From NCBI GenBank assembly GCA_023475265.1, contig JAMCWE010000207.1:1-33642 (forward strand): a stretch of DNA of 33,642 nt. Direction: 5' to 3'. Source of the stretch: Bacteroidota bacterium (lineage in GTDB: Bacteria; Bacteroidota; Ignavibacteria; Ignavibacteriales; Ignavibacteriaceae). Made by a program: the position numbers and the translations under genes. This document shows, one piece after another, positions 2,106 through 26,397 of this stretch (position 1 is its first letter; every line of letters starts with the position of its first letter). The notes beneath the pieces were generated by a model that worked only from the letters and a program-made list of their open reading frames with translations, had not been told where the DNA came from and ran no database searches.

Positions 2106-3260
2106 TTAGTTTTCCACTTCTTCTAAAACCGGCATTTCGATCCTGGTAAATTCTAGTTCTTTCACTTTAGTCTTCTGACTCTTCCCATTCTTACCAAACT
2201 TACTTCCAGGATTTAATTTATCGTTATAGTTTTTATATGAGAAAATTTTATTCTGATAATTTCGGAGTATAATTTTGTCTTCATCATGATGAACAACATA
2301 GTTAGGAAGCAAAGGTATCTTTCCACCACCGCCGGGTGCATCGATGACGAAATGTGGAATTGCTAGTCCGCTTGTATGGCCGCGAAGATTTTCAATTATG
2401 TTCAATCCTGTTTCAATTGAAGTTCTAAAATGATTTGCACCTTTAGTTTCATCAGCCATATACATATAGTAAGGACGAACCCGGATTCTCAACAACTTCT
2501 GCATTAATTCTTTCACAACTGCCGGATCATCATTAACGCCCTTCATCAAAACCATTTGATTACCAACCGGAACGCCTGCATCAGCAAGCATCTCGCAAGC
2601 TTTTGAACTTTCCGGTGTAATTTCCCAAGGATGATTGAAATGAGTATTAAGATAGATAGGATGATATTTCTTCAGCATATTACAAAGCTGAGGTGTAATC
2701 CGGTGCGGTAAAACGCAAGGCATCTTTGAACCAAGTCGAATAATTTCAATATGAGGAATCGATCGTATACGCTGAAGAATTTTTTCCAGCATTGTATCGG
2801 TCAGCATCAATGGATCACCGCCGGACATAATTACATCACGAATTTCGGTATGTGCTTCGAGATATTTAAAGGCACTTTCTAATCCTTTCATAGAAATTTT
2901 TTCGTAGTCACCAACTTTTCTTTTCCGTGTACAGAAACGGCAGTACAAACCGCACTGGCTGGTAACAAGAAATAGAGCTCTATCAGGATAGCGGTGAGTA
3001 ATATTTGGAACGGGGCTCATCGCATCTTCCATTAATGGATCTTCTTCTGCGTCAAAATCCTCAAGCTCAGCTTTATCCGGAACGCATTGACGCCAAATTG
3101 GATCGCCAGGTGATCGGATTAAACTGAGATAGTAAGGATTTATTCTTGCCTGAAAAAATTCATCCAGATCTTCTGCAACTTTGCGGTCAATATTAAATTT
3201 TTCCACAAGTTCATCAACAGTATGAACACTGTCTCTGACCATTTGCTGCCACAGTTCCAT
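2106..3260 (-). CDS. kamA: Lysine 2,3-aminomutase (radical SAM, PLP)
   Basis: A radical-SAM, PLP-dependent aminomutase expected to convert L-lysine to L-beta-lysine. The [4Fe-4S] motif is SQCGLYCRFC with Cys103, Cys107 and Cys110. The SAM-binding GGDP is at 147-150. The PLP lysine lies in DAPGGGGK (Lys314). Asp270 (in PYYMYMAD) and Asp307 (in FVIDAPG) have the same spacing as Asp293 and Asp330 of the clostridial enzyme, which bind the lysine side-chain amine. The glutamate mutases replace them with Lys and Asn, so lysine is the likely substrate. The C-terminal cysteines that bind structural zinc in the clostridial enzyme are absent. It is the last gene of a four-gene operon, 20 bp after the GNAT gene. 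An AGAGG ribosome site lies 8 nt before the ATG. An EF-P-modifying role (EpmB) is an alternative, but no EpmA partner is in the window. Confidence 0.9.
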   Translation of the reverse strand: MELWQQMVRDSVHTVDELVEKFNIDRKVAEDLDEFFQARINPYYLSLIRSPGDPIWRQCVPDKAELEDFDAEEDPLMEDAMSPVPNITHRYPDRALFLVTSQCGLYCRFCTRKRKVGDYEKISMKGLESAFKYLEAHTEIRDVIMSGGDPLMLTDTMLEKILQRIRSIPHIEIIRLGSKMPCVLPHRITPQLCNMLKKYHPIYLNTHFNHPWEITPESSKACEMLADAGVPVGNQMVLMKGVNDDPAVVKELMQKLLRIRVRPYYMYMADETKGANHFRTSIETGLNIIENLRGHTSGLAIPHFVIDAPGGGGKIPLLPNYVVHHDEDKIILRNYQNKIFSYKNYNDKLNPGSKFGKNGKSQKTKVKELEFTRIEMPVLEEVEN

Positions 3261-3280
3261 GACTTAGCCTCTAATTGTTG

Positions 3281-3754
3281 TTAATTACTAAAATATCTTC
3301 CGAAAACAACCAAGTGGTCGCCGACAGAATAAAAATCATTTATCTGCGCCACTATTGAAAAGTTATTTCTCAAATAAAAACTTCTAGTTTTTGAATAACT
3401 CTCTTTGGAAGATGTTTCGGCTAAAAACCATCTTCCATTATTTTCTTTAACAAAATTTTCTGCGTGTTCGAGTAATCTTTTTCCAATACCTTTAATTTCG
3501 GATTCCGGATCAGCGGCTATCCAATACAAATCAAAAACGCCGTCGGTTAAAGGCCTTTTACCTGTACAATAATAACCCAAAATCTTTTCATTATTTTCAT
3601 AAACGAATATATGATAATCTGTTTGTGCAGAATTATAAGCTGCAATATTTACCAACTCCATAGCAACTTCAACTTCAGTTTCTGAAAAAGTTGAAATTCT
3701 TTTTAAAATATTTTCAATGGCATTCACATCAGCCTGCTTTAATCTGCGAATCAT
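3281..3754 (-). CDS. GNAT-family N-acetyltransferase
   Basis: A 157-residue single-domain GNAT protein. The acetyl-CoA pyrophosphate-binding motif A is seen as IKGIGKRLLEHAENF (about residues 88-102), after a DLYWIAADPE strand. A C-terminal SFYLRNNFSIVAQI segment matches motif B. The substrate is unknown. It starts inside the end of the upstream ATP-grasp gene (26-bp overlap) and is followed 20 bp later by lysine 2,3-aminomutase. This invites comparison with beta-lysine N-acetylation, but it is much shorter than AblB-type beta-lysine acetyltransferases and need not be one. Its ATG is formed by the last A of a run of nine A residues. Confidence 0.8.
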   Translation of the reverse strand: MIRRLKQADVNAIENILKRISTFSETEVEVAMELVNIAAYNSAQTDYHIFVYENNEKILGYYCTGKRPLTDGVFDLYWIAADPESEIKGIGKRLLEHAENFVKENNGRWFLAETSSKESYSKTRSFYLRNNFSIVAQINDFYSVGDHLVVFGRYFSN

Positions 3755-4805
3755 TTTTTTTTCTACCTAATGCAAACTCTGCAATTGTTAAAAGTAAATC
3801 TGAATAAGATATTCCTGCCGCTGCTGCAGCTCTGACAAAGCCGGAATCCGTTGATATATCCGGATTTGGATTAACTTCAATAACATAAGGAAAATTATTT
3901 CTGTCCAATCGAATATCTACGCGTGCATAATCTCTGCAATTCATTGCTTCAAAAGCTTGAAGAGCCGTATCTTCAACTTTCTTTTTTGTGTTCTCATCCA
4001 ATACGGCAGGGCAAATTGGTTTTGTATGTTCGTAATAAATACTGTTCTCCATCCATTTGCCGTCATAAGTAACAATCTTTGGTAATCCGTCAGGCAAAGT
4101 GCTGAATTCAATTTCTGAAATTGGAAGTGCTTTATTCCCAAGAATTGCCACGTTCAATTCTCGTCCATTAATATATTCTTCAACTATTACTTCCTGCTTA
4201 TAAGTTTTTTGTAAGAAGTTTAATTGCTTAAGAAAATCTTCAAAATTATTTACTACCGAAAATTCAGAAATGCCAATGCTCGCATCTTCATTAAGCAATT
4301 TTAGAATTACCGGGAAATTTAAACCGAATTCCGGTTCAGAAATTTTTTGTGAATACGATATTGTAAGTGAGTTTGGAGTAGCAATGTTGTGTGAGCGTAA
4401 AATATTTTTAGCTCTTTCCTTGTTTAAACAATTTCCTAAGCACGATGGTAGGTTTCCTGTAAAATCATAATTAAGCAATTGGAAAAGTCCAGCCATGCAA
4501 TATTCATAAGTAGAAATTCCTTCAATTGACTCTACAAAATTAAATATTACATCAGGCGAAAATTCATTGATTGAGGAAATAGCACATTCGATATTTTTAT
4601 CAACCGCTAATGATTTTACGGTTGTAAAATTATCAAGCAAACTTTTTTCGATTTTTATTATTTCTTTTGAGAAAGCTGTTTCGGAAAGATCGTTTGGGGA
4701 ATAGCCAGCCTCAACGGGTTCGTTAGCTTGCGGCTTACCGTTGTAGATTGTGAAGATGCTAACAGGCGAATTATAACAAATCAGAATTTTTGCATTCTTC
4801 TTCAT
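3729..4805 (-). CDS. ATP-grasp ligase B (D-Ala-D-Ala ligase-like)
   Basis: A 358-residue ATP-grasp enzyme of the D-alanine-D-alanine ligase fold, expected to join a carboxylate (via acyl phosphate) to an amine. It shows the ATP-grasp order: LNFPVILKLLNEDASIGISE (the Ddl serine loop has become EDASIG), VEEYINGRELNVAILG, then DIRLD and the metal-binding IEVNPNPDIS. The usual EVN-x-xPG end has Asp in place of Gly, so substrate handling probably differs from true Ddl. It overlaps ligase A by 4 bp (ATGA) and the GNAT gene by 26 bp. It is clearly paralogous to ligase A but divergent from it. A peptidoglycan role is unlikely given the pairing and context. The natural substrates are unknown. Confidence 0.8.
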   Translation of the reverse strand: MKKNAKILICYNSPVSIFTIYNGKPQANEPVEAGYSPNDLSETAFSKEIIKIEKSLLDNFTTVKSLAVDKNIECAISSINEFSPDVIFNFVESIEGISTYEYCMAGLFQLLNYDFTGNLPSCLGNCLNKERAKNILRSHNIATPNSLTISYSQKISEPEFGLNFPVILKLLNEDASIGISEFSVVNNFEDFLKQLNFLQKTYKQEVIVEEYINGRELNVAILGNKALPISEIEFSTLPDGLPKIVTYDGKWMENSIYYEHTKPICPAVLDENTKKKVEDTALQAFEAMNCRDYARVDIRLDRNNFPYVIEVNPNPDISTDSGFVRAAAAAGISYSDLLLTIAEFALGRKKNDSQIKAG

Positions 4806-5872
4806 ATCAAATTATATCTTTTGGCAGCAACATAAAGAACTTTATTTATCATCTCGTCGTAATTTAAACCTTTAGTTCGCGCAGCTTTCGGGAAACATGA
4901 ATTCTCTTCTGGATTAGGAAGTATTCCCGGCAACGGATTTACTTCAATTATATTCGGTTCATTATTCGCATCGAGCCTAACATCGATTCGGCTCCAGTCT
5001 TTGCATCTAAGAACATTATAAGTTCTCAATACAGTTTCACTGATTTTTTTCTCAAGCGCTGAATCGATCTTAGCTGGACAAGAAAAAACATCAAGCGGAT
5101 TTTCTTTTGTATCTAAAATCCACTTTGCCTCGTATGAATAAATAGGAATAAAATCTTTTGGAAATTCATTGTAACTGATTTCAACTATTGGTAAAACTTC
5201 TGCTTCGCTTCCGTTTCCTATGATCGCTACAGTAAATTCTCTTCCCGGCAAAAACTCTTCCACCAACGCCGCTTGGTTATATTCAATTAGTATTCTTTCA
5301 ACTTCTTTAATTAAGTCTTTTTGATCTTTAACAAACGAACTGGAAAATATTCCTTTGCTTGATCCTTCTGAGATCGGCTTTACAATCAGCGGGAAATTTA
5401 AATTAATTTCTTTGGCTTGTTCTAAACTATCAACTAAAATAAATTTTGCATTCGGAATTTTGTAATATGATAAAATTTCTTTTGTTCTTGCTTTATCAAG
5501 ACAAGTAGCCAGCGTCAACGGGTCTGAACCTGTATAAGGTAATTGAAGCATGTCTAATATAGATGGTATCTGTGCTTCTCTGCTCACTCCATTGAAGCCT
5601 TCGGCAATATTAAAAACTATATCCGGATTTATTTCTTTTAGTTTTGTGAACGCAGAGTGATCGGCTTCCACTAATGTTACGTTATGAAAACATTCAATAG
5701 CATGTTTAACTGCATTTATAGTATCCCACGTATCCCATTCAGCATAGGTGTCAATAGATTTTTGCGGCTGAGTTTGTTGTGTATTTAAATTTGGGGGTAC
5801 TTCTTCGAGGAAAGTTTGACTTTCTGGTTTGACATTAAAAGTTAATGCAACGTTCAATCTAAAATTGAACAA
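4802..5872 (-). CDS. ATP-grasp ligase A (D-Ala-D-Ala ligase-like)
   Basis: First gene of the operon with ligase B, GNAT and kamA. It is a 356-residue ATP-grasp ligase of the Ddl fold. Visible elements are NFPLIVKPISEGSSKGIFSS (ATP-binding lysine and an EGSSKG serine loop close to Ddl's EGSSVG), VEEFLPGREFTVAIIG, IDVRLD and the Mg-binding IIEVNPLPGILP. The active site is better conserved than in ligase B, so it is probably active. There is no in-frame ATG near the 5' end. The assigned start is TTG at 5872, but the clear AAGGAG site (5890-5895) is 17 nt away. It is only 5 nt from an in-frame ATT at 5884, while TTG at 5857 gives the N-terminus closest to the family. The exact start is uncertain. 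Confidence 0.8.
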   Translation of the reverse strand: MFNFRLNVALTFNVKPESQTFLEEVPPNLNTQQTQPQKSIDTYAEWDTWDTINAVKHAIECFHNVTLVEADHSAFTKLKEINPDIVFNIAEGFNGVSREAQIPSILDMLQLPYTGSDPLTLATCLDKARTKEILSYYKIPNAKFILVDSLEQAKEINLNFPLIVKPISEGSSKGIFSSSFVKDQKDLIKEVERILIEYNQAALVEEFLPGREFTVAIIGNGSEAEVLPIVEISYNEFPKDFIPIYSYEAKWILDTKENPLDVFSCPAKIDSALEKKISETVLRTYNVLRCKDWSRIDVRLDANNEPNIIEVNPLPGILPNPEENSCFPKAARTKGLNYDEMINKVLYVAAKRYNLI

Positions 5873-5889
5873 TGAAGATAAAATATTTT

Positions 5890-5895
5890 CTCCTT
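5890..5895 (-). promoter_or_regulatory. Shine-Dalgarno site AAGGAG before ligase A
   Basis: AAGGAG on the minus strand (ctcctt on the plus strand). It sits 17 nt before the TTG at 5872 and 5 nt before an in-frame ATT at 5884. It is the only good ribosome site near the operon start and makes the start codon choice ambiguous between a distant TTG and a rare ATT. Confidence 0.55.
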
Positions 5896-6153
5896 AGAAA
5901 ATTTTTGTAGCAAATATAATTAATAAAAAATCTAAGTCAAGATTTTTTTATCACTCAGAAAATTTTTTTCGAAAACTTTTTTCGATTTTTTTTCTGATCA
6001 TAAAAATTTTTAAAAACTTTTTTTAAAATTCCAACAAAAAAAAATTTTCTCACGACAAATTTATAACAAAAAAAAATCATAAATCAAATTTTCTAAGCTC
6101 GATAAGAAAAATTTTTTAAAATATCTCTTTAAAAGTGCCATTGAAAAAATTTT
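5896..6153. other. Gene-free A/T-tract-rich spacer between recG and the ligase operon
   Basis: About 260 bp with no credible ORF and very few G or C bases. It is made of repeated oligo-A and oligo-T runs of 5-9 bases, often as AAAATTTTT junctions, that recur at short intervals. It must hold the promoter of the downstream minus-strand operon and the 3' end of recG. No clear G+C-rich terminator stem or consensus promoter could be picked out. Such phased A/T tracts are known to bend DNA and to attract nucleoid proteins; that role here is inference. Confidence 0.6.
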
Positions 6154-8394
6154 TCAGGCAATCTTTGCGTAACGAAGACTTGATGAATAATGTTCGATGA
6201 GATTTTTTCTGACAGCAAGATTGGTTTCATTCTGCAGGTGAGGATCTTTTTCGATAAGCTCAAATGCTTTCTTCTTTGCGAACTGAATTACATCAGCATC
6301 TTCGACTAAGTTTGCATGCTTAAGCTCCGGAAAACCGCTCTGCTGCGTGCCGAAAATGTCCCCCGGTCCTCTTAACTTTAAATCCATTTCAGCAATTTTA
6401 AACCCATCGGAGTATTTTACCATTGATTGCATCCTTACTGAAGATTTATATTTTTCAAGCTGGACAGGAGAAAGATATTCAAGATCAAATTGAAATTTAT
6501 CCTGTCTTGCTGCGAATTCATCTTTCGTAATGAGAATACAGTAAGCAGTTTTGTTGCTTCTGCCAACTCTGCCACGCAATTGATGAAGCTGAGATAATCC
6601 GAAACGATGCGCATCATTGATCAGAATTATATTTGCGTCGGGAATGTCTATGCCGACTTCAATTACTGTTGTTGCGATGAGCACATCAAACTTTTTTGCT
6701 AGGAACAACATCATTACTTCTTCTTTTTCCTGCCAGGACATTCTTCCGTGAATCAATCCAACATTAATATTTTTGAAATATGTTTCTTTAAGTTCGTCAT
6801 AAAATGTTTGGGCAGCTTTTAATTCAAGCTTCTCTGATTCTTCAACTAACGGGTAAACTATAAATGATTGATATCCATCTTTCATTTTATCAATTATGAA
6901 TTTATAAATTTCAGGAAGCTTGCTGTCACCTCGTAAAATAGTTTTGATCGGCTTTCTATTCTTTGGCATTTCATCTATTACTGAAATATCTAAATCACCG
7001 TAAACAGTCATTGATAATGTTCTTGGAATCGGCGTAGCACTCATGACGATTACATCCGGAGTTATTCCTTTGCTCATCAGGCTTGCTCTTTGTGCTACAC
7101 CGAATCGATGCTGCTCATCAACTATAACGAGACCAAGATTATTAAACTTAACTTTTCCTTCAAACAAAGCGTGAGTTCCAATAATTATGTCGGCTTCGTT
7201 TAGCTTTATATCCTGCAGATTTTTTTCTTTCAATGATTTCTTTTGTCCTCCCAAAAGTAAACTAACTTTAATCTCCTTCCCGCCTTGACTCACCAAAGGC
7301 GAGGCAGGCTCTTTATGAGCAACCGAAAGCCTATTCATCAATCTTGAAATATTTTTTGCATGCTGGTCAGCAAGAATTTCTGTAGGTGCCATCATAACAG
7401 CCTGGAATCCATTATCAACAGCAATCAGCATTGCAATGAGTGCAACGATTGTCTTGCCGCTTCCAACATCTCCTTGAAGCAGACGGTTCATCGGGAGCGG
7501 TTCTTCCATGTCTTTTCTAATTTCACTTAATACTTTTAATTGAGATTTTGTCAATTCAAATGGAAGTGTTTTCAGAAAATTATGGACAAGATTTGTTTTT
7601 ACTTTCAGTGAGTGACCGGATAGCTGGGACTTATAATTGTGATTTCTTAGAGCAACAAGCAATTCAAGATAAAATAATTCTTCAAACTTGAACCGGGCAA
7701 TTGCCGAATTTAATTTTTCTTTACTCGAGGGGAAGTGAAAATTCTTAACTGCTTCAACAAGGTTGAGAAAATTATTTTCGACTAAGATTTCCTCCGGCAA
7801 AGTTTCTTCAAGATTATCAGCATAACTTTCTACTGCATGGCTTATAATTCTTCTTAAGCTTAAATCTCCGATGTTCGTCGTTTTTAATTCTTTCGGAATA
7901 CGGTAGAAAGGGATAATCTTTCCGGTGTTGATGAAACTGTTAGATTCTTCTTCGGAAATTTTATCAAAATCCGGATGAGTAAATTGAAGATTACCGTATT
8001 TTGAAAGAGCAGGCTTACCGGAAACGGCGAAAATATTTCCTTCTTCAAAAACCGATTCAAAATATTTTATTCCCTGGAACCATACACATTCAAAAAATCC
8101 TGTAGAATCTCTGAACTGAACTTTCAACAATCCCTTCCTCCCGAAGTTCAACTTTTCTTTATCGACTACTTTCCCGATCACTGTTAATTCGCCTGCAAAT
8201 CCATTCATCAAATAGCCGTATGCTTTGGCAGCGGTTAGTGTTGTCGTTCTATCGAGATGACGAGTAGGAAAATAAAATAAAAGATCTTTGATTGTTACTA
8301 TTCCAACTTTTCTAAATGCTTCTGCGCGCTTCGGACCAACCGATTTTAAATATTGAATCGACTCGTTTAATATTTTTTCTTTTTCAGTTTTCAT
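6154..8394 (-). CDS. recG: ATP-dependent DNA helicase RecG
   Basis: A branched-DNA helicase that remodels stalled forks and Holliday junctions. The N-terminal wedge/OB domain is recognisable (SVGPKRAEAFRKVGI, then an FFECVWFQGIKYF strand region). Helicase motifs follow: Walker A LLQGDVGSGKT (about residue 310), MAPTEILADQH, Walker B DEQHRFGV, MSATPIPRTLSM, then the second RecA domain with GLIHGRM, TTVIEVGIDIPDAN and QLRGRVGRS, and the RecG tail LRGPGDIFGTQQSG. The ATG at 8394 is preferred because the eight extra residues from the ATG at 8418 are hydrophobic and not family-like. Neither has a clear ribosome site. An unusual insertion of about 17 residues (HKEPASPLVSQGG region) lies between helicase motifs Ia and Ib. 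The gene diverges from dgt. Confidence 0.95.
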   Translation of the reverse strand: MKTEKEKILNESIQYLKSVGPKRAEAFRKVGIVTIKDLLFYFPTRHLDRTTTLTAAKAYGYLMNGFAGELTVIGKVVDKEKLNFGRKGLLKVQFRDSTGFFECVWFQGIKYFESVFEEGNIFAVSGKPALSKYGNLQFTHPDFDKISEEESNSFINTGKIIPFYRIPKELKTTNIGDLSLRRIISHAVESYADNLEETLPEEILVENNFLNLVEAVKNFHFPSSKEKLNSAIARFKFEELFYLELLVALRNHNYKSQLSGHSLKVKTNLVHNFLKTLPFELTKSQLKVLSEIRKDMEEPLPMNRLLQGDVGSGKTIVALIAMLIAVDNGFQAVMMAPTEILADQHAKNISRLMNRLSVAHKEPASPLVSQGGKEIKVSLLLGGQKKSLKEKNLQDIKLNEADIIIGTHALFEGKVKFNNLGLVIVDEQHRFGVAQRASLMSKGITPDVIVMSATPIPRTLSMTVYGDLDISVIDEMPKNRKPIKTILRGDSKLPEIYKFIIDKMKDGYQSFIVYPLVEESEKLELKAAQTFYDELKETYFKNINVGLIHGRMSWQEKEEVMMLFLAKKFDVLIATTVIEVGIDIPDANIILINDAHRFGLSQLHQLRGRVGRSNKTAYCILITKDEFAARQDKFQFDLEYLSPVQLEKYKSSVRMQSMVKYSDGFKIAEMDLKLRGPGDIFGTQQSGFPELKHANLVEDADVIQFAKKKAFELIEKDPHLQNETNLAVRKNLIEHYSSSLRYAKIA
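7262..7325 (-). repeat. GC-rich palindromic insertion inside recG
   Basis: This in-frame segment encodes roughly VAHKEPASPLVSQGGKE, which is not expected in RecG at this place. It contains a 6-bp inverted repeat CGCCTT / AAGGCG (7281-7301) with a 9-nt loop. The stem continues past one mismatch and stands out as G+C rich in an AT-rich gene. It resembles a protein-coding palindromic repeat element that inserted without breaking the frame. Confidence 0.5.
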
Positions 8395-8441
8395 TGCAAT
8401 GAAAAATATATCAAGCATTTAGAAATTACAATAAGATAGAA

Positions 8442-8470
8442 GTTCAAATTATTCTTTACTAAATTTGAAC
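8442..8470. promoter_or_regulatory. Inverted repeat in the recG/dgt divergent promoter region
   Basis: Perfect 9-bp arms GTTCAAATT and AATTTGAAC separated by 11 bp. They lie in the short stretch between the divergent recG and dgt starts. The arm centres are about two helical turns (20 bp) apart, as expected for a dimeric repressor operator. The right arm also spans the TTG at 8465, so an RNA hairpin acting on dgt is an alternative reading. Confidence 0.45.
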
Positions 8471-8486
8471 TCGTTTATCAAAAACC

Positions 8487-8493
8487 AAGGTGA
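8487..8493 (+). promoter_or_regulatory. Shine-Dalgarno site AAGGTGA that sets the dgt start
   Basis: AAGG lies 7 nt before the TTG at 8498, a standard spacing. No comparable site precedes the earlier in-frame TTG at 8465. Starting at 8498 gives an N-terminus (LEWTKLLS, with TTG read as Met) that matches the usual dGTPase start. Confidence 0.55.
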
Positions 8494-8497
8494 CAAA

Positions 8498-9868
8498 TTG
8501 GAATGGACAAAACTTCTTTCAAGAAAATTAATTTGTGATGAAAAATCTTTTCAACAAAATTTACACGACGGAAGAAGTCCGTTCCAAAGAGACTTTGACC
8601 GGATTGTTTTCTCGTCGGCATTTAGAAGATTACAGGATAAGACTCAGGTTTTTCCTTTGCCCGAAAATGATTTTGTTCATACAAGGTTAACTCACAGCTT
8701 TGAAGTTTCTTGCGTGGGAAGATCGTTAGGAACTTTAGTCGGCTCAACAATCATCGAAAGGAATAATGAATTAAAAAAAGAATACTCGCATTTCCATTTT
8801 GGTGAAATTGTTGCCGCCGCTTGCCTTGCTCATGATATTGGCAATCCGCCTTTCGGCCATTCAGGTGAAGATGCAATTGCGGAATATTTTAAACATGGCG
8901 GTGGTAAACAATTTAAAGCCGGGCTAACCGAACTCCAGTGGAATGATTTTACAAAGTTCGAAGGCAATGCACAAGGATTCAGAATAATGACCAAACTTCA
9001 GAATCCAAAAATAAAAGGTGGGTTAAGATTAACTTGCGCAGTCTTGAGTGCATTCACAAAATATCCGAAAGAATCTTTCCAGGCTGACACAAAAATAATT
9101 CCTTCGGGAAAAAATAAATTGTACAAAAAATTCGGGTTCTTTCAATCTGAAAAAGATTTATTCGTTGAGACTGCTGACGAAACCGGGCTTGAAAAACGCA
9201 GCATCGAAAAAAATTATATATGGCGGCATCGTCATCCGCTAACTTTTCTTGTGGAAGCAGCGGACGATATTTGTTACCGCATTATGGATCTTGAAGATGG
9301 TTTCCGTTTAGGATTGCTTTCCTTTAAGGACACCGAAGAACTTTTACTTCCGTTTATAAAAGGGAAAAAATTAAATTCATATAAAGAACGGGATGAGAAT
9401 GATAAAGTCGGTTATCTTCGTGCGAAGTCTATTAACTCCGTTATTGAAAACATCGCTGAAGTTTTTTTAGACAACGAGAAAAATATTTTGAGCGGTAAGC
9501 TTGAGAAAGATCTAGTTTCAATTATTCTAACCGGAGACTTGCTGGAGAAGATTAAAGAAATTTCAATCGATAAAATTTATTCATATAAAAGTGTAATCGA
9601 AAGAGAAGCTGCAGGATATGAAGTTCTCGGCGGACTGCTAGATTCTTTTATTCAAGCAGTAAATGATGCAGCAGAAGGAAGGTCAACGCCAAAAGGAAAA
9701 ACTTTACTTAAGCTTTTGCCAAAACAATTTTTAGGGAAAGATGCAAAGCCTGATGATGATCTGTATGTTCGTCTTTTAAAAATTACCGATTTTGTTTCCG
9801 GCATGACGGACTCTTATGCAGTTTCACTTTATAGAAAGATAAAAGGAATTTCTTTGCCGGGGAGATGA
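8498..9868 (+). CDS. dgt: Deoxyguanosinetriphosphate triphosphohydrolase (dGTPase), HD domain
   Basis: Hydrolyses dGTP (or dNTPs) to the deoxynucleoside and triphosphate, helping set dNTP pools. The metal-binding HD domain is clear: HTRLTHS near residue 61, LAHDIGNPPFGHSGED near residues 110-125 (His-Asp pair plus following His), and EAADDICYRIMDLEDG further on. The early block DGRSPFQRDFDRIVFSSAFRRLQDKTQVF is also typical. The 456-residue length fits the E. coli-like long form better than the short type. The start is TTG at 8498, chosen from the AAGGTGA site. The frame is open back to a TTG at 8465. It is the only plus-strand gene after nadK and its partner. The 3' end runs into the 21-bp tandem array. 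Confidence 0.92.
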   Translation: MEWTKLLSRKLICDEKSFQQNLHDGRSPFQRDFDRIVFSSAFRRLQDKTQVFPLPENDFVHTRLTHSFEVSCVGRSLGTLVGSTIIERNNELKKEYSHFHFGEIVAAACLAHDIGNPPFGHSGEDAIAEYFKHGGGKQFKAGLTELQWNDFTKFEGNAQGFRIMTKLQNPKIKGGLRLTCAVLSAFTKYPKESFQADTKIIPSGKNKLYKKFGFFQSEKDLFVETADETGLEKRSIEKNYIWRHRHPLTFLVEAADDICYRIMDLEDGFRLGLLSFKDTEELLLPFIKGKKLNSYKERDENDKVGYLRAKSINSVIENIAEVFLDNEKNILSGKLEKDLVSIILTGDLLEKIKEISIDKIYSYKSVIEREAAGYEVLGGLLDSFIQAVNDAAEGRSTPKGKTLLKLLPKQFLGKDAKPDDDLYVRLLKITDFVSGMTDSYAVSLYRKIKGISLPGR

Positions 9869-10470: not shown

Positions 10471-13368
10471 TTATTTTAGAAGCAGCATCTTTTTTGTGGA
10501 GATATAATTACCGGAGCGAAGTTGATAAAAGTAAATTCCGCTTGCAAGATAAGATGCATCGAACTTAACCGAATACTTTCCCTTGCTCTGGAATTCATTT
10601 AATAAAGTTGTTACTTCCTGCCCCAGAAAATTATAAATCTTTAACGTAACAAAACAGCTTTGCGGAATTTGATATTCAATCGCAGTAGTTGGATTAAAGG
10701 GATTCGGATAGTTTTGTTCAAGCAAATAAGAATCCGGTTCAGTCAATCTTTTTACGTGAGTAATGACAGTATTATTTCTTACTGCAAATCTGAAAACATC
10801 ATTCGAAGCAATTTCTTTATAAGTAATAACATGCAAAGTATCGCCAGCATGCGGCAGATTAGAATTACTAAAATTAAATTCTATTTGATAAGATGTAGTT
10901 GGTCCTGAAGCTTCCTGTGGTTGTAAAATAATTGATTGAGATGGTTTCCATCTTGACAAATTTTGAGTACTTAAATTAACAAAGGCAATATATTGAGCTG
11001 GATATTTTCCACCGGTTATATTATAGATATGAAATGGAGTAATAACTTTAACATTATTTATGTTGGTGCTTGCGGTGTCTCCCGGAAAAATATAGTTGCT
11101 GTTGAGATTTGTATCCATATTATTAAAAGCAATTATCCAATCCTGCGGAACAGCAACTTTCGGATTACCTGCAATAGGTGGAAAAGTTATTTTGGCAGTT
11201 GAATCTAAATCACTTCTATTAAATTTTGATTCGTCATAATTAATTCCTGTTGGAATATCGTTCACGGTTAATTTTATTCCATCAAATTCCGGAGTTGATA
11301 TTCCTTGCTGTAAAAAGTAATCGCTTAAAACCACTTTCCCATTATTTACATCCTTTATAGACATTGTCTTTTGAGCAGGATTGCTAGCATTAAAAGTCAA
11401 TTCATAAGTATCAGTGGTTATTTGGGATGTATCTATTTCCTGCAAATAAAAAGTCGGCGTAGAATTCCCGGATAAATGGATAAAGTTATTGGTAACATAT
11501 GAATTCTCTGAATAATTAATACTGAAGGGACCTGCTACCAAAGAGGAATCCAGTACCCCATCGGATGCAGTAACCTTAAGGTAATAATTATTCGCATTGG
11601 GAACGGAGCTGACATCCCATGCAAATGAATTTATACCGGTTGAATAATTACTTTTAGAAATTTCGGTAAATGGTCCACTCTGATTAGTTGAATATTCCAA
11701 ATCAATACTTAGCTGATTATTGTCGGCATCTTCTGCAAGCCAGGGAATGCTAATAGTTTTTTGTGCAATTACCGAATTTACAAACGGAATATTTAATTCA
11801 AGTTCCGGCTGCGCATCACCGGGATTATTAACTGTAAATTTGGCGGATGAAATATTGTAATAATACTGGCTCATTCTAAAAGGATTATAAGAGACCAGCC
11901 TTAATAAATAATTTACACCATCTTTATAATTAACAGTATTCCACATATAAGATGAATCAATGGGAATATCCCAAGCAGCCGGGTACCAACTACTGCCGCG
12001 GTCAGATGAATATTCTATTAAAAGCTTTGCGTTAACATCCGTTCCGCTATATTTCCAGGTCACGGGTACATCACCGCTGAACGCTCCTGAATTTTGTGAA
12101 GTAAGCTCTATCTTATAATTATTATTTCCGCCGCTTCCGCCAATTTGATTTCCTATGCCGGGCCAGTTATGATCGAAGTACATTGTTACAGCATCGTTTT
12201 TCATATCTTGAAAATCATTTGAGAAGAATATGACTAATTCAATTTCTTTGGTTTCACCAGCCGCAAGACTAAAAGAACCTGTTCCAAAATTTATAATATT
12301 ATCACCTGGTTGAGTATATAGAGTGCTTGATGTGTCTATTCCCCCGGATAACCAGTTCCACATTAATGCGCTGTTATTAGGAACATTGGGTAATGAATTT
12401 GTATATGGTGCGGTATGAAAAGAAGTTAAATCTTTATTATCCGGAGTATTTAAAAACTTAAAGCTCATATATCCCGGATGTTTTCCACCCATTCCCAAGC
12501 CATCGTTATCCCATAAATATATCGTGTTTTTGGCAAAGTAATTATTGACATCTCCTGCCGGTCCATTTGGACCAATAAGATGGACCCTATCATCTGAATA
12601 ATCATTATATCCCCCAATATGCGGATCGCCTTGAAAGCCGAAATAAACTTCACTCAGGTTTTTTTGACTAACATTCGTGATTTTATATTTAATTAATAAT
12701 GCATCTTTTAAAGAGCCGCCAAATTCATATACGCGAACTTCAGCTTTTAATCCCAATCCTCTTTTTGTTGTATCTCCTGGAAACGGATAATATGGAAACT
12801 TAGCATTTGAAAAATCATCCATAACATAATACGCTTCGTTCAAACTTGTATAAACACTATCACCATACGGCCAGGATGTCCAACTGCTTGGCCATGAAGC
12901 GGGATTATTTTTTGTAGCAATTTCATTCTGATTCGGATTAGCATAACCTGAATCAGGCAGCCAACCCCATTTAACACTTCCATCTGGCGAGTAAGTTCCT
13001 TGAGAAGGCAGTACAAAAGAATCGTCTGTTATCCTTAATGTATCTCCGTTATCGTTTATAACTTTTGCAGCAACAATGGGACCGAATTCAAACATATAGC
13101 CCAACCCATTCCAAACCATATCTGCAACATTTCCCAAATAATTTGGTTTACTAAATGAGCCGTAATTAAAAAACACGGTCTTTACATTATTTGAATCCAA
13201 AATAACCTGTTTAATTGCTGATTGTTCTCCTTGCGGTAATGGTTGTGCAAAAACAATTATTGGAAGAAAAAAAACAATTGAGCAAATTAAACTCAATTTA
13301 ATCTTTGCTTGGCTAAAAGAAATAAAATGAAATCTAACAAAAGTATTGAATGATAATTTGGAGAGCAT
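10471..13368 (-). CDS. Large secreted protein with type IX secretion C-terminal sorting domain
   Basis: A 965-residue exported protein. The N-terminus is a long signal peptide (basic start, hydrophobic LSLICSIVFFLPIIVFA, then QPLPQ near residue 43). The last 85 or so residues form a type A sorting domain: YLLEQNYPNPFNPTTAIEYQ, LKIYNFLGQEV, SGIYFYQLRSG and a basic KKMLLLK end. This marks it for type IX secretion across the outer membrane. The body is beta-rich, with segments resembling Ig/fibronectin-like modules around residues 430-640 (for example VTWKYSGTDVNAKLLIEYSSD and IPWLAEDADNNQLSIDLEYS). No catalytic motif was recognised, and the function is unknown. It appears to be transcribed alone. 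A GGGGG ribosome-site-like run precedes the ATG by 8 nt. Confidence 0.85.
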   Translation of the reverse strand: MLSKLSFNTFVRFHFISFSQAKIKLSLICSIVFFLPIIVFAQPLPQGEQSAIKQVILDSNNVKTVFFNYGSFSKPNYLGNVADMVWNGLGYMFEFGPIVAAKVINDNGDTLRITDDSFVLPSQGTYSPDGSVKWGWLPDSGYANPNQNEIATKNNPASWPSSWTSWPYGDSVYTSLNEAYYVMDDFSNAKFPYYPFPGDTTKRGLGLKAEVRVYEFGGSLKDALLIKYKITNVSQKNLSEVYFGFQGDPHIGGYNDYSDDRVHLIGPNGPAGDVNNYFAKNTIYLWDNDGLGMGGKHPGYMSFKFLNTPDNKDLTSFHTAPYTNSLPNVPNNSALMWNWLSGGIDTSSTLYTQPGDNIINFGTGSFSLAAGETKEIELVIFFSNDFQDMKNDAVTMYFDHNWPGIGNQIGGSGGNNNYKIELTSQNSGAFSGDVPVTWKYSGTDVNAKLLIEYSSDRGSSWYPAAWDIPIDSSYMWNTVNYKDGVNYLLRLVSYNPFRMSQYYYNISSAKFTVNNPGDAQPELELNIPFVNSVIAQKTISIPWLAEDADNNQLSIDLEYSTNQSGPFTEISKSNYSTGINSFAWDVSSVPNANNYYLKVTASDGVLDSSLVAGPFSINYSENSYVTNNFIHLSGNSTPTFYLQEIDTSQITTDTYELTFNASNPAQKTMSIKDVNNGKVVLSDYFLQQGISTPEFDGIKLTVNDIPTGINYDESKFNRSDLDSTAKITFPPIAGNPKVAVPQDWIIAFNNMDTNLNSNYIFPGDTASTNINNVKVITPFHIYNITGGKYPAQYIAFVNLSTQNLSRWKPSQSIILQPQEASGPTTSYQIEFNFSNSNLPHAGDTLHVITYKEIASNDVFRFAVRNNTVITHVKRLTEPDSYLLEQNYPNPFNPTTAIEYQIPQSCFVTLKIYNFLGQEVTTLLNEFQSKGKYSVKFDASYLASGIYFYQLRSGNYISTKKMLLLK

Positions 13369-24366: not shown

Positions 24367-26397
24367 CTAATTTGTAATAACCATTTTTTTAACATCAACA
24401 AAATCGTTTGCCTTGAACCGGTAGAAATAAATTCCCGGTCTTAATCCCGAAGAATGAAAAGTAATTGAATTCTCACCGGCTGGAAATGATTTATCAATTT
24501 CACTTATCTTTTCCACATGATCATCAAAGAACTCTATTGTAACCGGTGATGGATCAGGCAGATAAAAACTGATTGTTGTAGAATCGGAAAAAGGATTTGG
24601 AATATTCTGTGCAACAATTACATCCGACGATGCACCAAAAAAATTAATTCTGCTGATGTTCGATTTCACTTCGTTTCCTTGAACATCGGTTTCAACAACG
24701 CGATAATATAAAGTCCCGGTAACTGTGGGCGAATCAAAATATTCATACTTTGCCGCATTTGTTTTTCCGGCAGAATTTATAGAGCCAATAACATTCCAAT
24801 TTATATTTCCGTTATCCTGTTGTTCGCTTCTTTCAACATCATAGCGGGTAGAACCTCTTTCGTTTGTTGTGTACCATTCTACTTTTATTGAATCGCCGGA
24901 AAGCTGCGTATTAAAATCAACAATTTCCGAAACGTATGTCCCGGTGCTGAAAACTTTCTGTCCGTAAATTTCATTCTTTCCATTTCGCATATTTTTGAAA
25001 ATCGCAATTGCACCGCCGCTTTCATCAGAAACTAAAGTAAGATAACTTTTCAAAGTATTATGATTGGAAGCGACAGCCAAACCAAGAGAATCCCATTTCC
25101 TGCTGCCGTCTTCATTTATTCTTTGAGCATAAATATCCGCATAAGACAAATTTATTCTTCTATCGATCCATGCTAAAATAACGCCGCCTTTTCCATCACC
25201 TACGATCTGCTGACCGAATTGTTCACCGGCTAGTTTTATAACTGGAACTCCGTGTTTGTTCCAGATTGGTTTTCCATTTCTGTTAAATTTCTGAATATAA
25301 ACATCTTTGTCATTGCCTTGTTCATTCGTCCAGCTTAATATTATGGAAGAGTCAGCTTTGTTCACTTCCGGATTAACCTGATTCCCTTTTAATGTTGTAA
25401 CCAATCTACCGCCGCGTGCCCAGATTATTTTTCCTTTACTGTTTACAATTTGATGATAGATTTCTTTTTCTTTTTTTAACGTCTGCCACGCAACATAAAT
25501 TGATTGATCCTCAATTTTTTTCGCTGCATAAGTAATTACATTATGAGATGGACCGGAAACATCAACCGGTTTTTTATCCCAGGTTGCTTTTCCATCAGCG
25601 TTAAAATGCTGACCGAAAATAATACTTTTCCCATTTTGCATTTCAATCCAGAAAACAAAAGCGCCGCCATTTTCATCCGGTATTATATTCGTCATGCTTT
25701 TTCTTTCATGCGATTTGTATAGAACTTCACCGCCGGATTTCAGAAGAGGTTTTCCCTCACTAGATATTTTTTGAATTTCAATTTTATACTCGCCGGTAAT
25801 TTCAGGTTCTTTTGCTATATAAGAAATATATAAATCACCGGATTGATCCGTGCTGACAGAATATTGGCTGATTTCATCATTTGAATTTGTTAATCTTATT
25901 CCGTTATCTGTCCAGCCAAAACTATTGTCATATAAAATTTGTTGAGCAAATAAATCTCCGTTATTTGAATAAGTATAATCTTTCCATAGAACAACTGCGG
26001 CGCCCGGATATTCTTTTGCGCAGACCGGGTTTTCTTCTGCACCGGCTAATTGAGAAATTCTTTTCCCATCGGGTCGAAGACTGATATTTCCATTCACATC
26101 TACATGCGAAAAATAAACTTCGTTCTGAAATCCATTTCTATTATCCTGCCAGACCATGAATGATCCGCCGTTTAAATCACTCACGGCAGAAATATTAACC
26201 GGATCGCGTGTATCAATTACTAATTGCGTATTGACGGAAGGATTATTTATCCATTGAGCAAATGCATTTGCGTACAAACCAAAAAATAAAATTGTGAAAA
26301 TTGCCGCTTGAACTAAAATGCTGTAGTTAAATTGATTTCCGTTAAAAAAAATTTCAAAATAATCGGTGTAATTACGATACAAAATTAAAATCCTCAT
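24367..26397 (-). CDS. Secreted repeat protein with type IX secretion C-terminal sorting domain
   Basis: A 676-residue exported protein. The signal peptide has its hydrophobic core at about residues 29-44 (LVQAAIFTILFFGLYA) and probable cleavage after AFAQ. The body has repeated units of the type GGSFMVWQDNRNG...YFSHVDVNGN, GGAFVFWIEMQNG and GGVILAWIDRRIN...YAQRINEDGSRKW. These are repeats of about 45-60 residues with a W-D/E-R-N core that suggest a beta-propeller. A fibronectin-like segment precedes the end. The last 80 residues are a type A sorting domain (VIVAQNIPNPFSDSTTISFY ... PGIYFYRF ... KKMVITN). Its 5' end overlaps the smc 3' end by 26 bp. The ligand or function is unknown. Confidence 0.82.
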   Translation of the reverse strand: MRILILYRNYTDYFEIFFNGNQFNYSILVQAAIFTILFFGLYANAFAQWINNPSVNTQLVIDTRDPVNISAVSDLNGGSFMVWQDNRNGFQNEVYFSHVDVNGNISLRPDGKRISQLAGAEENPVCAKEYPGAAVVLWKDYTYSNNGDLFAQQILYDNSFGWTDNGIRLTNSNDEISQYSVSTDQSGDLYISYIAKEPEITGEYKIEIQKISSEGKPLLKSGGEVLYKSHERKSMTNIIPDENGGAFVFWIEMQNGKSIIFGQHFNADGKATWDKKPVDVSGPSHNVITYAAKKIEDQSIYVAWQTLKKEKEIYHQIVNSKGKIIWARGGRLVTTLKGNQVNPEVNKADSSIILSWTNEQGNDKDVYIQKFNRNGKPIWNKHGVPVIKLAGEQFGQQIVGDGKGGVILAWIDRRINLSYADIYAQRINEDGSRKWDSLGLAVASNHNTLKSYLTLVSDESGGAIAIFKNMRNGKNEIYGQKVFSTGTYVSEIVDFNTQLSGDSIKVEWYTTNERGSTRYDVERSEQQDNGNINWNVIGSINSAGKTNAAKYEYFDSPTVTGTLYYRVVETDVQGNEVKSNISRINFFGASSDVIVAQNIPNPFSDSTTISFYLPDPSPVTIEFFDDHVEKISEIDKSFPAGENSITFHSSGLRPGIYFYRFKANDFVDVKKMVITN

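Follow-up and report, generated by a model that had tools for sequence, protein, structure and literature searches.

A recurrent four-gene set with a lysine 2,3-aminomutase-like enzyme and two ATP-grasp ligases points to a pathway for a small beta-lysine-containing compound

Introduction

Two known systems of beta-lysine metabolism come close to the gene set described here. The route to the osmolyte N-epsilon-acetyl-beta-lysine carries a lysine 2,3-aminomutase (AblA) and an acetyltransferase (AblB) in one operon. In the second system, the beta-lysine of a KamA-family enzyme, EpmB, is joined to something else, as EpmA attaches it to EF-P; among macromolecule-modifying enzymes, RimK acts on ribosomal protein S6 by adding glutamate. 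GNAT acetyltransferases and ATP-grasp enzymes, sometimes fused, also meet in the synthesis of a peptide-like compatible solute, N-acetylglutaminylglutamine amide, which involves an AsnO-type amidotransferase with a GNAT/ATP-grasp protein. A fourth point of comparison is D-alanine--D-alanine ligase (Ddl). The substrate residues of E. coli DdlB include H63 and Y216, and Ser281 in Ddl binds the second amino acid by its carboxylate.

The window analysed here is a stretch of 33,642 nucleotides from a genome of the class Ignavibacteria (Bacteroidota; assembly GCA_023475265.1, contig JAMCWE010000207.1). It carries a putative operon that shares features with all of these systems. Like AblA–AblB, it combines a lysine 2,3-aminomutase-like gene with an acetyltransferase gene; unlike it, the acetyltransferase does not match the AblB model, and the retained set includes two ATP-grasp ligases. 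These ligases stand in place of the synthetase paralog of EpmB–EpmA, and the KamA is far from EpmB. In contrast to N-acetylglutaminylglutamine amide synthesis, there are two Ddl-type ligases and a supply of beta-lysine, and no amidotransferase was seen among the six proteins scanned (the operon and its downstream neighbours). The ligases have the fold and ATP-grasp catalytic residues of Ddl but differ from it in both substrate pockets, in forming separate clades and in the presence of another Ddl in the genome.

Taken on its sequences, the gene set points to a pathway so far undescribed, for a small beta-lysine-containing compound. No description of the module was found in the open literature, as represented mostly by titles and the beginnings of abstracts. 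The same holds for the titles and abstract beginnings of papers that pair beta-lysine with ATP-grasp enzymes, and for passages of PMC3543383, PMC12316311 and PMC4641369.

Organisation of the operon

Four genes lie on the minus strand, running from 5872 to 2106 in the order ligA-ligB-gnat-kamA, behind two candidate signals:

4802..5872, minus strand: ligA, Ddl-type ATP-grasp ligase A, first gene (Pfam Dala_Dala_lig_C, E 8e-38)
3729..4805, minus strand: ligB, Ddl-type ATP-grasp ligase B (Dala_Dala_lig_C, E 7e-32)
3281..3754, minus strand: gnat, small GNAT N-acetyltransferase (Pfam Acetyltransf_7, E 2e-10)
2106..3260, minus strand: kamA, lysine 2,3-aminomutase-like radical SAM enzyme, last gene (phmmer to 2a5h, E 5e-123)
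5913..5940, minus strand: promoter-like site TTGACT-16-TATATT, best match upstream of ligA (10/12 matches)
5890..5895, minus strand: ribosome-binding-like AAGGAG before ligA (from the sequence)

The tight packing described in the initial annotation was reproduced: ligA and ligB overlap by 4 bp, ligB and gnat overlap by 26 bp, and gnat and kamA are separated by 20 bp.

Conservation among relatives

This four-gene neighbourhood is retained in the order and class of the window genome, and also in several other phyla. A strong kamA match is present in 50 of the 59 genomes sampled from the order. Strong kamA places from 49 relatives number 51, and 50 of them have all four genes, labelled by the best match of the listed open reading frames; the region of the 51st (L037) is cut by a contig end and starts within ligB. 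The four genes also stand together at 15 of 16 places in the other families of this class. The association of the four genes is not due to chance.

Elsewhere, the genes are present without being adjacent. The five genomes of one family (f34), and one further genome (G134), have ligA, ligB and kamA at separate places, and in one Thermochlorobacteriaceae genome these three are scattered and the GNAT is also present. Two Ignavibacteria-type loci (L184 and L191) have kamA and both ligases with no GNAT match. RecG, NAD kinase and a thioredoxin-like gene border the operon at many loci within the order and class, but no full-length RecG or NAD kinase was seen adjoining the module in the other phyla, and all three genes were rejected as partners.

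Distribution across phyla

The module recurs in many distant bacteria and, in part, in archaea. In named genomes, the best 80 of the 559 ligB loci include 57 full modules and another 10 in which kamA stands with both ligases, and the module takes seven arrangements of genes and strands. Within the same best 80, 24 of these 67 fall outside the Ignavibacteria-type loci and have rearranged gene orders. This spread is a lower bound, since it rests on the best 80 of 559 relatives.

Two phyla were sampled further, named here after the genomes of L185 (Dehalococcoidia; Chloroflexota) and L233 (Syntrophaceae; Desulfobacterota). In Chloroflexota, 12 of 13 strong loci examined hold the full module, from a sample of 14 of the 17 matches other than G284 itself, with three weak ones omitted. 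Among 297 genomes of Desulfobacterota, the GNAT was detected in 96, KamA in 166 and both in 91. KamA thus accompanies the GNAT in 91 of 96 genomes, compared with 75 of the 201 that lack the GNAT, and 5 of the 96 have the GNAT without KamA. Of the 91 genomes having both, at least 59 have the two genes within 8 kb of each other, a minimum rather than a rate, as it comes from 60 kamA places picked for apparently sharing the contig of the GNAT. Twenty Desulfobacterota regions, chosen as 16 with kamA near the GNAT and four without, comprised 16 of the form kamA-ligA-ligB-gnat (three with a deacetylase gene) and four of the form ligA-ligB-gnat.

The archaeal sets are partial. An ortholog of this GNAT was not found in the two Bathyarchaeota genomes and one Woesearchaeota genome tested, and all three retain kamA and both ligases. 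One Bathyarchaeota locus carries a different GNAT, and the Woesearchaeota genome is 0.9 Mb in size and possibly incomplete. An MFS protein adjoins the Bathyarchaeota module of L227, with a similar open reading frame at L229.

KamA and its substrate

The window KamA is the single KamA match in its genome at E 0.001. Its best NCBIfam model is lysine 2,3-aminomutase (TIGR03820), at 467 bits against a cut-off of 525.4, and it passes the KamA-family subfamily model TIGR00238 (309.6 bits; cut-off 199.2). Of eight other KamAs scanned, only that of a deltaproteobacterial module (L233) passes TIGR03820, at 529.9 bits. The score of the window KamA against the EpmB model TIGR03821 is 234.9 bits, below the cut-off of 369.3.

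The CxxxCxxC cysteines, PLP lysine 337, Asp293 and Asp330 (2a5h numbering) are all retained. The earlier observation that KamA keeps both lysine-selecting aspartates is borne out, with Asp270 and Asp307 aligning with Asp293 and Asp330 of the Clostridium enzyme (2a5h). Across 146 aligned rows, D293 is present in 139 (2 Q, 5 gaps), and D330 and K337 in 140 (6 gaps); in this alignment and that of the ligases some genomes were entered twice, and row counts are not species numbers because loci overlap (L039 and L223, for example, cover the same gene places). Judging by family and residues, KamA probably converts lysine to beta-lysine. Both aspartates are also present in four KamAs outside any module (L162–L165), and their retention is therefore evidence for lysine, not for module membership.

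Module KamAs do not form a single clade. Those of Chloroflexota and the deltaproteobacterial modules sit on separate branches of a tree whose backbone is weakly supported. An exchange of kamA is therefore possible, and a KamA lineage common to all modules is unsupported by the tree. KamA also has other uses, since a ligase match is absent from 38 of 44 KamA genomes in the window's phylum outside its class.

The initial annotation had set the module apart from three known uses of KamA, and none of these is indicated in the window genome and 20 relatives. EpmA (TIGR00462) was above its cut-off in 0 of these 21 genomes (controls 2/14), and the pairing of kamA with epmA that had been raised as a contrary outcome was not seen. 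AblB (TIGR03827) was likewise above its cut-off in 0 of 21 (controls 3/14). Lysine 5,6-aminomutase (PF09043) was matched in one of the 21 (G044), not in the window genome, and in 0 control genomes, so the sensitivity of this search is uncertain. On these counts, EF-P modification, the AblB osmolyte and lysine fermentation were set aside as module roles. EpmA matches below the cut-off occur in all 21 genomes (best 259.9 against 286.9 bits; 114 in the window genome); with frames of about 500 residues, they are taken for lysyl-tRNA synthetase.

Two ligases with altered pockets

The closest PDB chains of both ligases are D-alanine--D-alanine ligases, and both score below the cut-off of the corresponding model (TIGR01205, 245.65 bits), ligA at 168.3 and ligB at 134.2. 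The AlphaFold2 model of LigB (pLDDT 90.1) has the Ddl fold, and a fold search with it for clues to the ligase substrates gave only D-alanine ligases among the 50 matches listed (one entry is a D-alanine:D-lactate ligase).

For the residue comparison, rows longer than 420 residues were trimmed to their last 400 and those shorter than 300 were dropped. The ATP- and metal-binding residues K97, K144, E180, E187, K215, R255, D257, E270 and N272 (E. coli DdlB numbering) are invariant in both ligases, except for E270 to D in 1 of 132 ligA rows and 6 of 139 ligB rows. The substrate residues of Ddl are replaced: H63 by E in 132/132 ligA and 139/139 ligB rows, and Y216 by W in 123/132 or R in 9/132 ligA rows and by W in 139/139 ligB rows, where A or B was assigned by best match rather than by tree and single odd rows may be mis-sorted. 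The two ligases also differ from each other. S150, Y210, G276 and S281 are mostly retained in ligA, and ligB has D276 and G282 in 139/139 rows, A or G at 150, and V at 210 in 107/139. The active-site difference noted in the initial annotation thus holds, and the aligned residues predict two distinct pockets, neither of them Ddl-like, with catalytic residues retained.

The ligase tree agrees. Both ligases lie far from E. coli DdlB and the genome's own separate Ddl (L004), which group together, on branches of more than 2 changes per column, and there is no tight grouping with these two peptidoglycan enzymes. From bacteria to archaea, 23 of 24 ligA rows form one clade, and the 24th was mis-extracted. 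The ligB side is not settled because L326_B (wrong frame) and L279_A (the L279 fusion frame entered a second time) are extraction errors; L213_B is placed beside a group of ligA and Ddl. A ligB paralog lies away from kamA, with 12 of 12 such loci lacking kamA, and ligB-type enzymes therefore need not use beta-lysine.

The acetyltransferase and an accessory deacetylase

At E 0.001 the GNAT does not match TIGR03827, the AblB model, and its best NCBIfam match, RimI, is weak (33.6 bits against a cut-off of 86.4). Its profile matches 2r7h (Desulfovibrio DDE_3044; E 9e-47), the closest solved relative, and its structural model (pLDDT 96.7) aligns with 2r7h at a TM of 0.93; RimI-type structures are among the nearest folds. 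The entry 2r7h is labelled a putative D-alanine N-acetyltransferase, a name probably taken from neighbouring Ddl-like genes, and we know of no tested function for it.

In a planctomycete (L279), a ligB–GNAT fusion stands behind kamA and ligA; its 853-residue open reading frame starts in a non-ligA frame, with ligB and GNAT only from residue ~348 onward. Some operons in Chloroflexota and Desulfobacterota add a GNAT–deacetylase fusion. The deacetylase half is closest to acetylpolyamine amidohydrolase but differs from it in being fused to a second GNAT domain, and it is absent from the window operon.

Proposed pathway and alternative explanations

The reading we favour, with somewhat better than even confidence, is that the module makes an acetylated beta-lysine-containing amide via its paired ligases, and that the product is small and intracellular. 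From its family and substrate residues, KamA would convert L-lysine to beta-lysine. The two Ddl-type ligases, with their different pockets, would form successive amide bonds, taking beta-lysine to a short peptide-like compound. The GNAT would acetylate an amine, as a cap or a removable protecting group, and in some lineages the GNAT–deacetylase fusion of the same operon could remove the acetyl group. The compound probably stays inside the cell, as no exporter is seen in the recurring set, and it would most likely act as a solute, either compatible or stress-related, or as a polyamine-like stabiliser. More tentatively, the product may represent a new class of intracellular metabolite, a reversibly acetylated beta-lysine peptide that KamA and two dedicated ATP-grasp ligases make, acting as a polyamine-like or compatible solute in bacteria and archaea of at least five phyla, and possibly an ancient trait of anaerobes.

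A variant of the N-acetyl-beta-lysine osmolyte route is an unlikely alternative. KamA and the GNAT, acting for AblB, would make N-epsilon-acetyl-beta-lysine, mirroring the logic of AblA–AblB, and the ligases would give a second, derived solute or be incidental. Such a replacement is possible given the lack of above-cut-off AblB in the 21 genomes, and a passage of PMC3543383 proposes the AblA–AblB route for Pelobacter carbinolicus after methanogens. The ligases, however, are retained as tightly as the GNAT even where the genes are scattered, one is fused to the GNAT in the planctomycete, and in the three archaeal genomes kamA is accompanied by both ligases but not by this GNAT.

Similarly unlikely is that the ligases join beta-lysine to a macromolecule or carrier protein, which the GNAT modifies further. 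Beta-lysine is a known modification of EF-P, the GNAT is weakly RimI-like in score and has RimI-type folds nearby, and kamA and both ligases persist in the small, perhaps incomplete Woesearchaeota genome. Against this, Ddl-type ligases act on small amino acids, ligA mostly retains the carboxylate-holding Ser281, EpmA is not above its cut-off in the 21 genomes, and no recurrent carrier or target gene adjoins the module in 28 loci outside Ignavibacteria (clustering of open reading frames).

That the module yields a natural product for secretion, for instance an antibiotic or metallophore, is less probable still. Peptide natural product clusters do hold ATP-grasp ligases with a GNAT, and the MFS gene beside the L227 module, with its counterpart at L229, would suit export; but no exporter recurs with the module across phyla in those 28 loci, and the set occurs in most of an order (50/59) and several phyla rather than patchily.

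That the ligases are cell-wall enzymes (for D-Ala-D-Ala or a cross-bridge) with kamA a chance neighbour is highly improbable: their Ddl superfamily membership and closest PDB chains, and the label of 2r7h, would fit, but peptidoglycan ligases are rejected by trees (L004 being the one that groups with E. coli DdlB), by the loss of H63 and Y216 in every row, and by a spread that includes archaea and Chloroflexota carriers that we take to be Dehalogenimonas-like, a group presumably without peptidoglycan, while kamA stays with the ligases across several gene orders.

If the favoured pathway to an acetylated beta-lysine amide is correct, most sampled genomes of the window's order would have a pathway with two dedicated ligases. 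This lysine-to-beta-lysine pathway would also occur in Acidobacteriota, in Dehalogenimonas-like Chloroflexota and in some archaea. Of the Desulfobacterota-type genomes sampled, roughly one in three (96/297) carries its GNAT. The pathway would account for some of the kamA genes that have neither EpmA nor AblB with them, and proteins labelled automatically as D-alanine ligase or D-alanine acetyltransferase would need renaming. As a relative of the GNAT has already been solved from Desulfovibrio (2r7h), a test in organisms that can be cultured may be feasible.

Upstream region

Upstream of ligA lies a gap of 281 bp with 18% G+C. It holds only open reading frames of 21–44 residues, which look low-complexity or overlap neighbours; a ribosomally made (graspetide-type) cluster was rejected on this basis. 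The promoter-like site is weak, since the region has 15 such sites against 15.4 in shuffles, which is no excess. Use of the TTG at 5872 as the ligA start codon is uncertain. It lies 17 bases from the AAGGAG at 5890–5895, and by sequence an in-frame ATT at 5884 stands at a more suitable distance from that motif.

The operon and its conservation

The window is an entire contig (G000:C149) of the genome studied, and on it kamA (lysine 2,3-aminomutase-like), two Ddl-type ATP-grasp ligase genes (ligA, ligB) and a GNAT N-acetyltransferase gene (gnat) are as tightly packed as the initial annotation had described.

Features of the window operon, which lies between recG and a thioredoxin-like gene
5872-4802, minus strand: ligA
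4805-3729, minus strand: ligB, overlapping ligA by 4 bp
3754-3281, minus strand: gnat, overlapping ligB by 26 bp
3260-2106, minus strand: kamA, after a 20-bp gap from gnat
5940-5913, minus strand: promoter-like TTGACT-16-TATATT upstream of ligA, by sequence
5895-5890, minus strand: AAGGAG upstream of ligA

Promoter-like sites are no more frequent in this region than in shuffled sequence. Elsewhere in the window, a gene named smc from its sequence lies in two frames (26372-27973 and 28114-29982, minus strand), with a frame shift near 28130 that is either an assembly error or a real break. Two large proteins (10471-13368 and 24367-26397, minus strand) have C-terminal motifs that may be type IX secretion sorting tails, which they resemble.

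The order Ignavibacteriales carries strong kamA genes in 50 of 59 genomes, the window genome counted. Any kamA match is found in 54 of 59, four of which have only weak ones that resemble other radical SAM genes. The four-gene order was expected to be conserved in related genomes, and the set is complete at 50 of the 51 strong kamA places in 49 relatives (the 51st starts within ligB at a contig end) and at 15 of the 16 loci from further families in this class, the sixteenth being a 3.4-kb contig.

In a phylum-wide survey covering 247 genomes (thresholds E ≤ 1e-35 for ligB and E ≤ 1e-60 for kamA), 38 genomes within the class had a ligase match, 36 of them together with kamA, and none in the class had kamA without a ligase match. 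The two exceptions are G199, whose sole match belongs to the third-paralog group in the tree, and G045, where ligA-ligB run off the contig end. Outside the class, ligase matches occur in nine genomes. Three (G063, G205, G265) have single weak matches in longer frames and no kamA, while five genomes of family f34 and G134 have ligA, ligB and kamA at separate places; five of these six KamAs rank highest among all those outside the class, and a contig end truncates the remaining one. A ligase match is absent from 38 of the 44 kamA genomes outside the class, and KamA therefore has other uses there too.

Distribution across phyla

A ligB profile scan of named genomes gave 559 relatives, of which the best 80 were analysed, with genes at their loci typed by tblastn. 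These 80 derive from Ignavibacteria, Kryptonia-type bacteria, Acidobacteriota including Aminicenantes, Dehalococcoidia, deltaproteobacteria, Planctomycetes, Bathyarchaeota, Woesearchaeota and one Thaumarchaeota record. Among them, kamA, two ligases and GNAT occur together at 57 loci, and kamA with two ligases at another 10; a single locus, at a contig end, shows kamA and ligB, and 12 lack kamA. Sorted by record title, and counting the untitled L197 and L226, 24 of the 67 loci with kamA and two ligases lie outside the Ignavibacteria-type loci. Within the same 80, the order ligA-ligB-gnat-kamA is found at 50 loci, plus one with kamA in two pieces, kamA-ligA-ligB-gnat at five, all Chloroflexota, and ligA-kamA-ligB at four, alongside other orders; four archaeal loci include a strand switch, and full-length recG adjoins the module in Ignavibacteria-type loci only. 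The kamA of Candidatus Chrysopegis kryptomonas (L245 9318-10444) reads as two pieces.

GNAT can also be encoded elsewhere in the genome, as in four deltaproteobacteria (top matches E 6e-28 to 6e-34) and one Thermochlorobacteriaceae genome (E 4e-28). A match is present in 11 of 14 genomes examined, and none was found in two Bathyarchaeota genomes and the Woesearchaeota genome. The protein at L227 5981-7867 (minus strand), next to a Bathyarchaeota module, combines an MFS transporter portion with one resembling cytidylate kinase; a similar ORF lies at L229 1212-3059 (minus strand).

In Chloroflexota, to which the L185 genome belongs, ligB was detected at E ≤ 1e-45 in 18 of 251 genomes. Of the 13 strong loci analysed, 12 have kamA-ligA-ligB-gnat; L273 and a fourteenth, weaker locus have ligB-gnat only. 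In Desulfobacterota, the phylum that includes the L233 genome, the GNAT profile matches 96 of 297 genomes and KamA (E ≤ 1e-80) is found in 166, that is, in 91 of the 96 genomes with GNAT versus 75 of the 201 without it. Sixteen of 20 chosen Desulfobacterota regions have kamA-ligA-ligB-gnat, three of them with a deacetylase gene, and in the remaining four, ligA-ligB-gnat stand together while kamA lies at another place in the genome.

Two ligases and an aminomutase

Alignment of 132 ligA-type and 139 ligB-type rows, in E. coli DdlB numbering, shows that both sets retain the ATP-grasp catalytic residues. Both lack H63, with E in its place, and Y216, replaced by W (R in nine ligA rows). The proposed active-site difference between the two ligases is evident at positions 150, 210 and 276. 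LigA rows mostly retain S150, Y210, G276 and S281, whereas ligB has A or G at 150, V at 210 in 107 of 139 rows, and D276 and G282 in all 139; position 281 is A in 74, S in 55 (window ligB included), T in nine and G in one. With D276 and G282, the ligB pocket may accept a second substrate that differs from the Ddl one and perhaps carries an amine at this position.

In a 51-row tree, 23 of 24 ligA rows, bacterial and archaeal, form one supported clade (98/85), the 24th having been mis-extracted, and ligB rows fall outside it; the two are therefore old paralogs maintained as a pair. Two peptidoglycan Ddl sequences form a long branch (2.36) adjoining the ligA clade. A further ligB-clade ligase, the third in the window genome, adjoins a divergent Peptidase_C39-type gene at L131 (G000:C37:6000-17142; ORFs 6501-7337, minus, and 7437-8498, plus). 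Loci of this type also include L132, flanked on that side by a SIMPL-type gene, L133 and L146-L154. The 12 ligB-paralog loci of the same class serve as a built-in control: by tblastn, all of them lack kamA, GNAT and a second ligase, and they probably represent a different use of ligB-type enzymes.

Window KamA matches lysine 2,3-aminomutase 2a5h (E 5e-123). Its top NCBIfam model is the lysine enzyme, at a score below cut-off and with an alignment that stops at position 365 of 417. The retention of both lysine-selecting aspartates, read initially from the window alone, is upheld by alignment: D293, D330 and K337 are kept in every KamA row covering them, bar two with Q293 (families f18 and f28). 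In two genomes of those families, a Ddl-like ligase gene is directly followed by the KamA-family gene with Gln for Asp293 (L166 4093-7226; L167 3402-7323). The L166 protein has arginine 2,3-aminomutase as its top model, below cut-off, and these pairs are perhaps a parallel system for a different beta-amino acid. One more use of KamA is indicated at L162 and L163 (family f21), where kamA lies downstream of a gene for a B12-binding-domain radical SAM protein and, at L162, of a second radical SAM gene as well. These KamAs branch among module KamAs, and their genomes have no ligase match.

GNAT and an accessory deacetylase

The module GNAT is a distinct family in which W78, ETSS 113-116 and Y142 are invariant (33 rows). 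Its nearest fold relative is 2r7h, followed by RimI-type enzymes and PaiA, a polyamine acetyltransferase. In a planctomycete, kamA and ligA precede a single frame encoding ligB and GNAT. Four Chloroflexota and three Desulfobacterota loci also carry, within the operon, a GNAT-deacetylase fusion of about 575 residues, its frame split in L243 (Chloroflexota).

Examples of GNAT-deacetylase fusions
L185 9498-11237
L330 5972-7708
L317 4000-5718

Desulfobacterota copies are 54-59% identical to the Chloroflexota copy. In all three fusions examined, the GNAT domain is barely above the Pfam cut-off and is followed by a histone-deacetylase-type domain; no PDB relative of the N-terminal part was found by sequence. 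The closest solved relatives of the deacetylase domain are acetylpolyamine amidohydrolases (E 6e-68), and its fusion within the operon suggests that the module pathway can both acetylate and deacetylate a small amine.

Proposed pathway and role

In the proposed pathway, KamA would convert lysine to beta-lysine, two ATP-dependent amide bonds would be made in succession, and an amine would be acetylated, with deacetylation optional. AblA-AblB (N-acetyl-beta-lysine osmolyte synthesis), EpmAB (EF-P beta-lysylation) and lysine fermentation each miss a feature examined here. The pairing of KamA and acetyltransferase resembles AblA-AblB, and that of GNAT and ATP-grasp functions resembles N-acetylglutaminylglutamine synthesis, which combines these two functions. 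Searches of open-access papers turned up no account of KamA together with paired ATP-grasp ligases.

An intracellular small molecule is the favoured product. Comparison of 28 loci outside the Ignavibacteria revealed neither an exporter nor a carrier protein or target that recurs beside the module, and the set is also present in archaea and in Dehalogenimonas-like organisms, which lack peptidoglycan; both points favour this reading. Two-component neighbours would fit a regulated stress metabolite: four deltaproteobacterial loci have such a system next to the module (AtoS/AtoC-like at the single locus scanned), and in L266 (Chloroflexota) genes for a histidine kinase and a response regulator come after the operon, with ORFs of similar size in that place in L267-L272.
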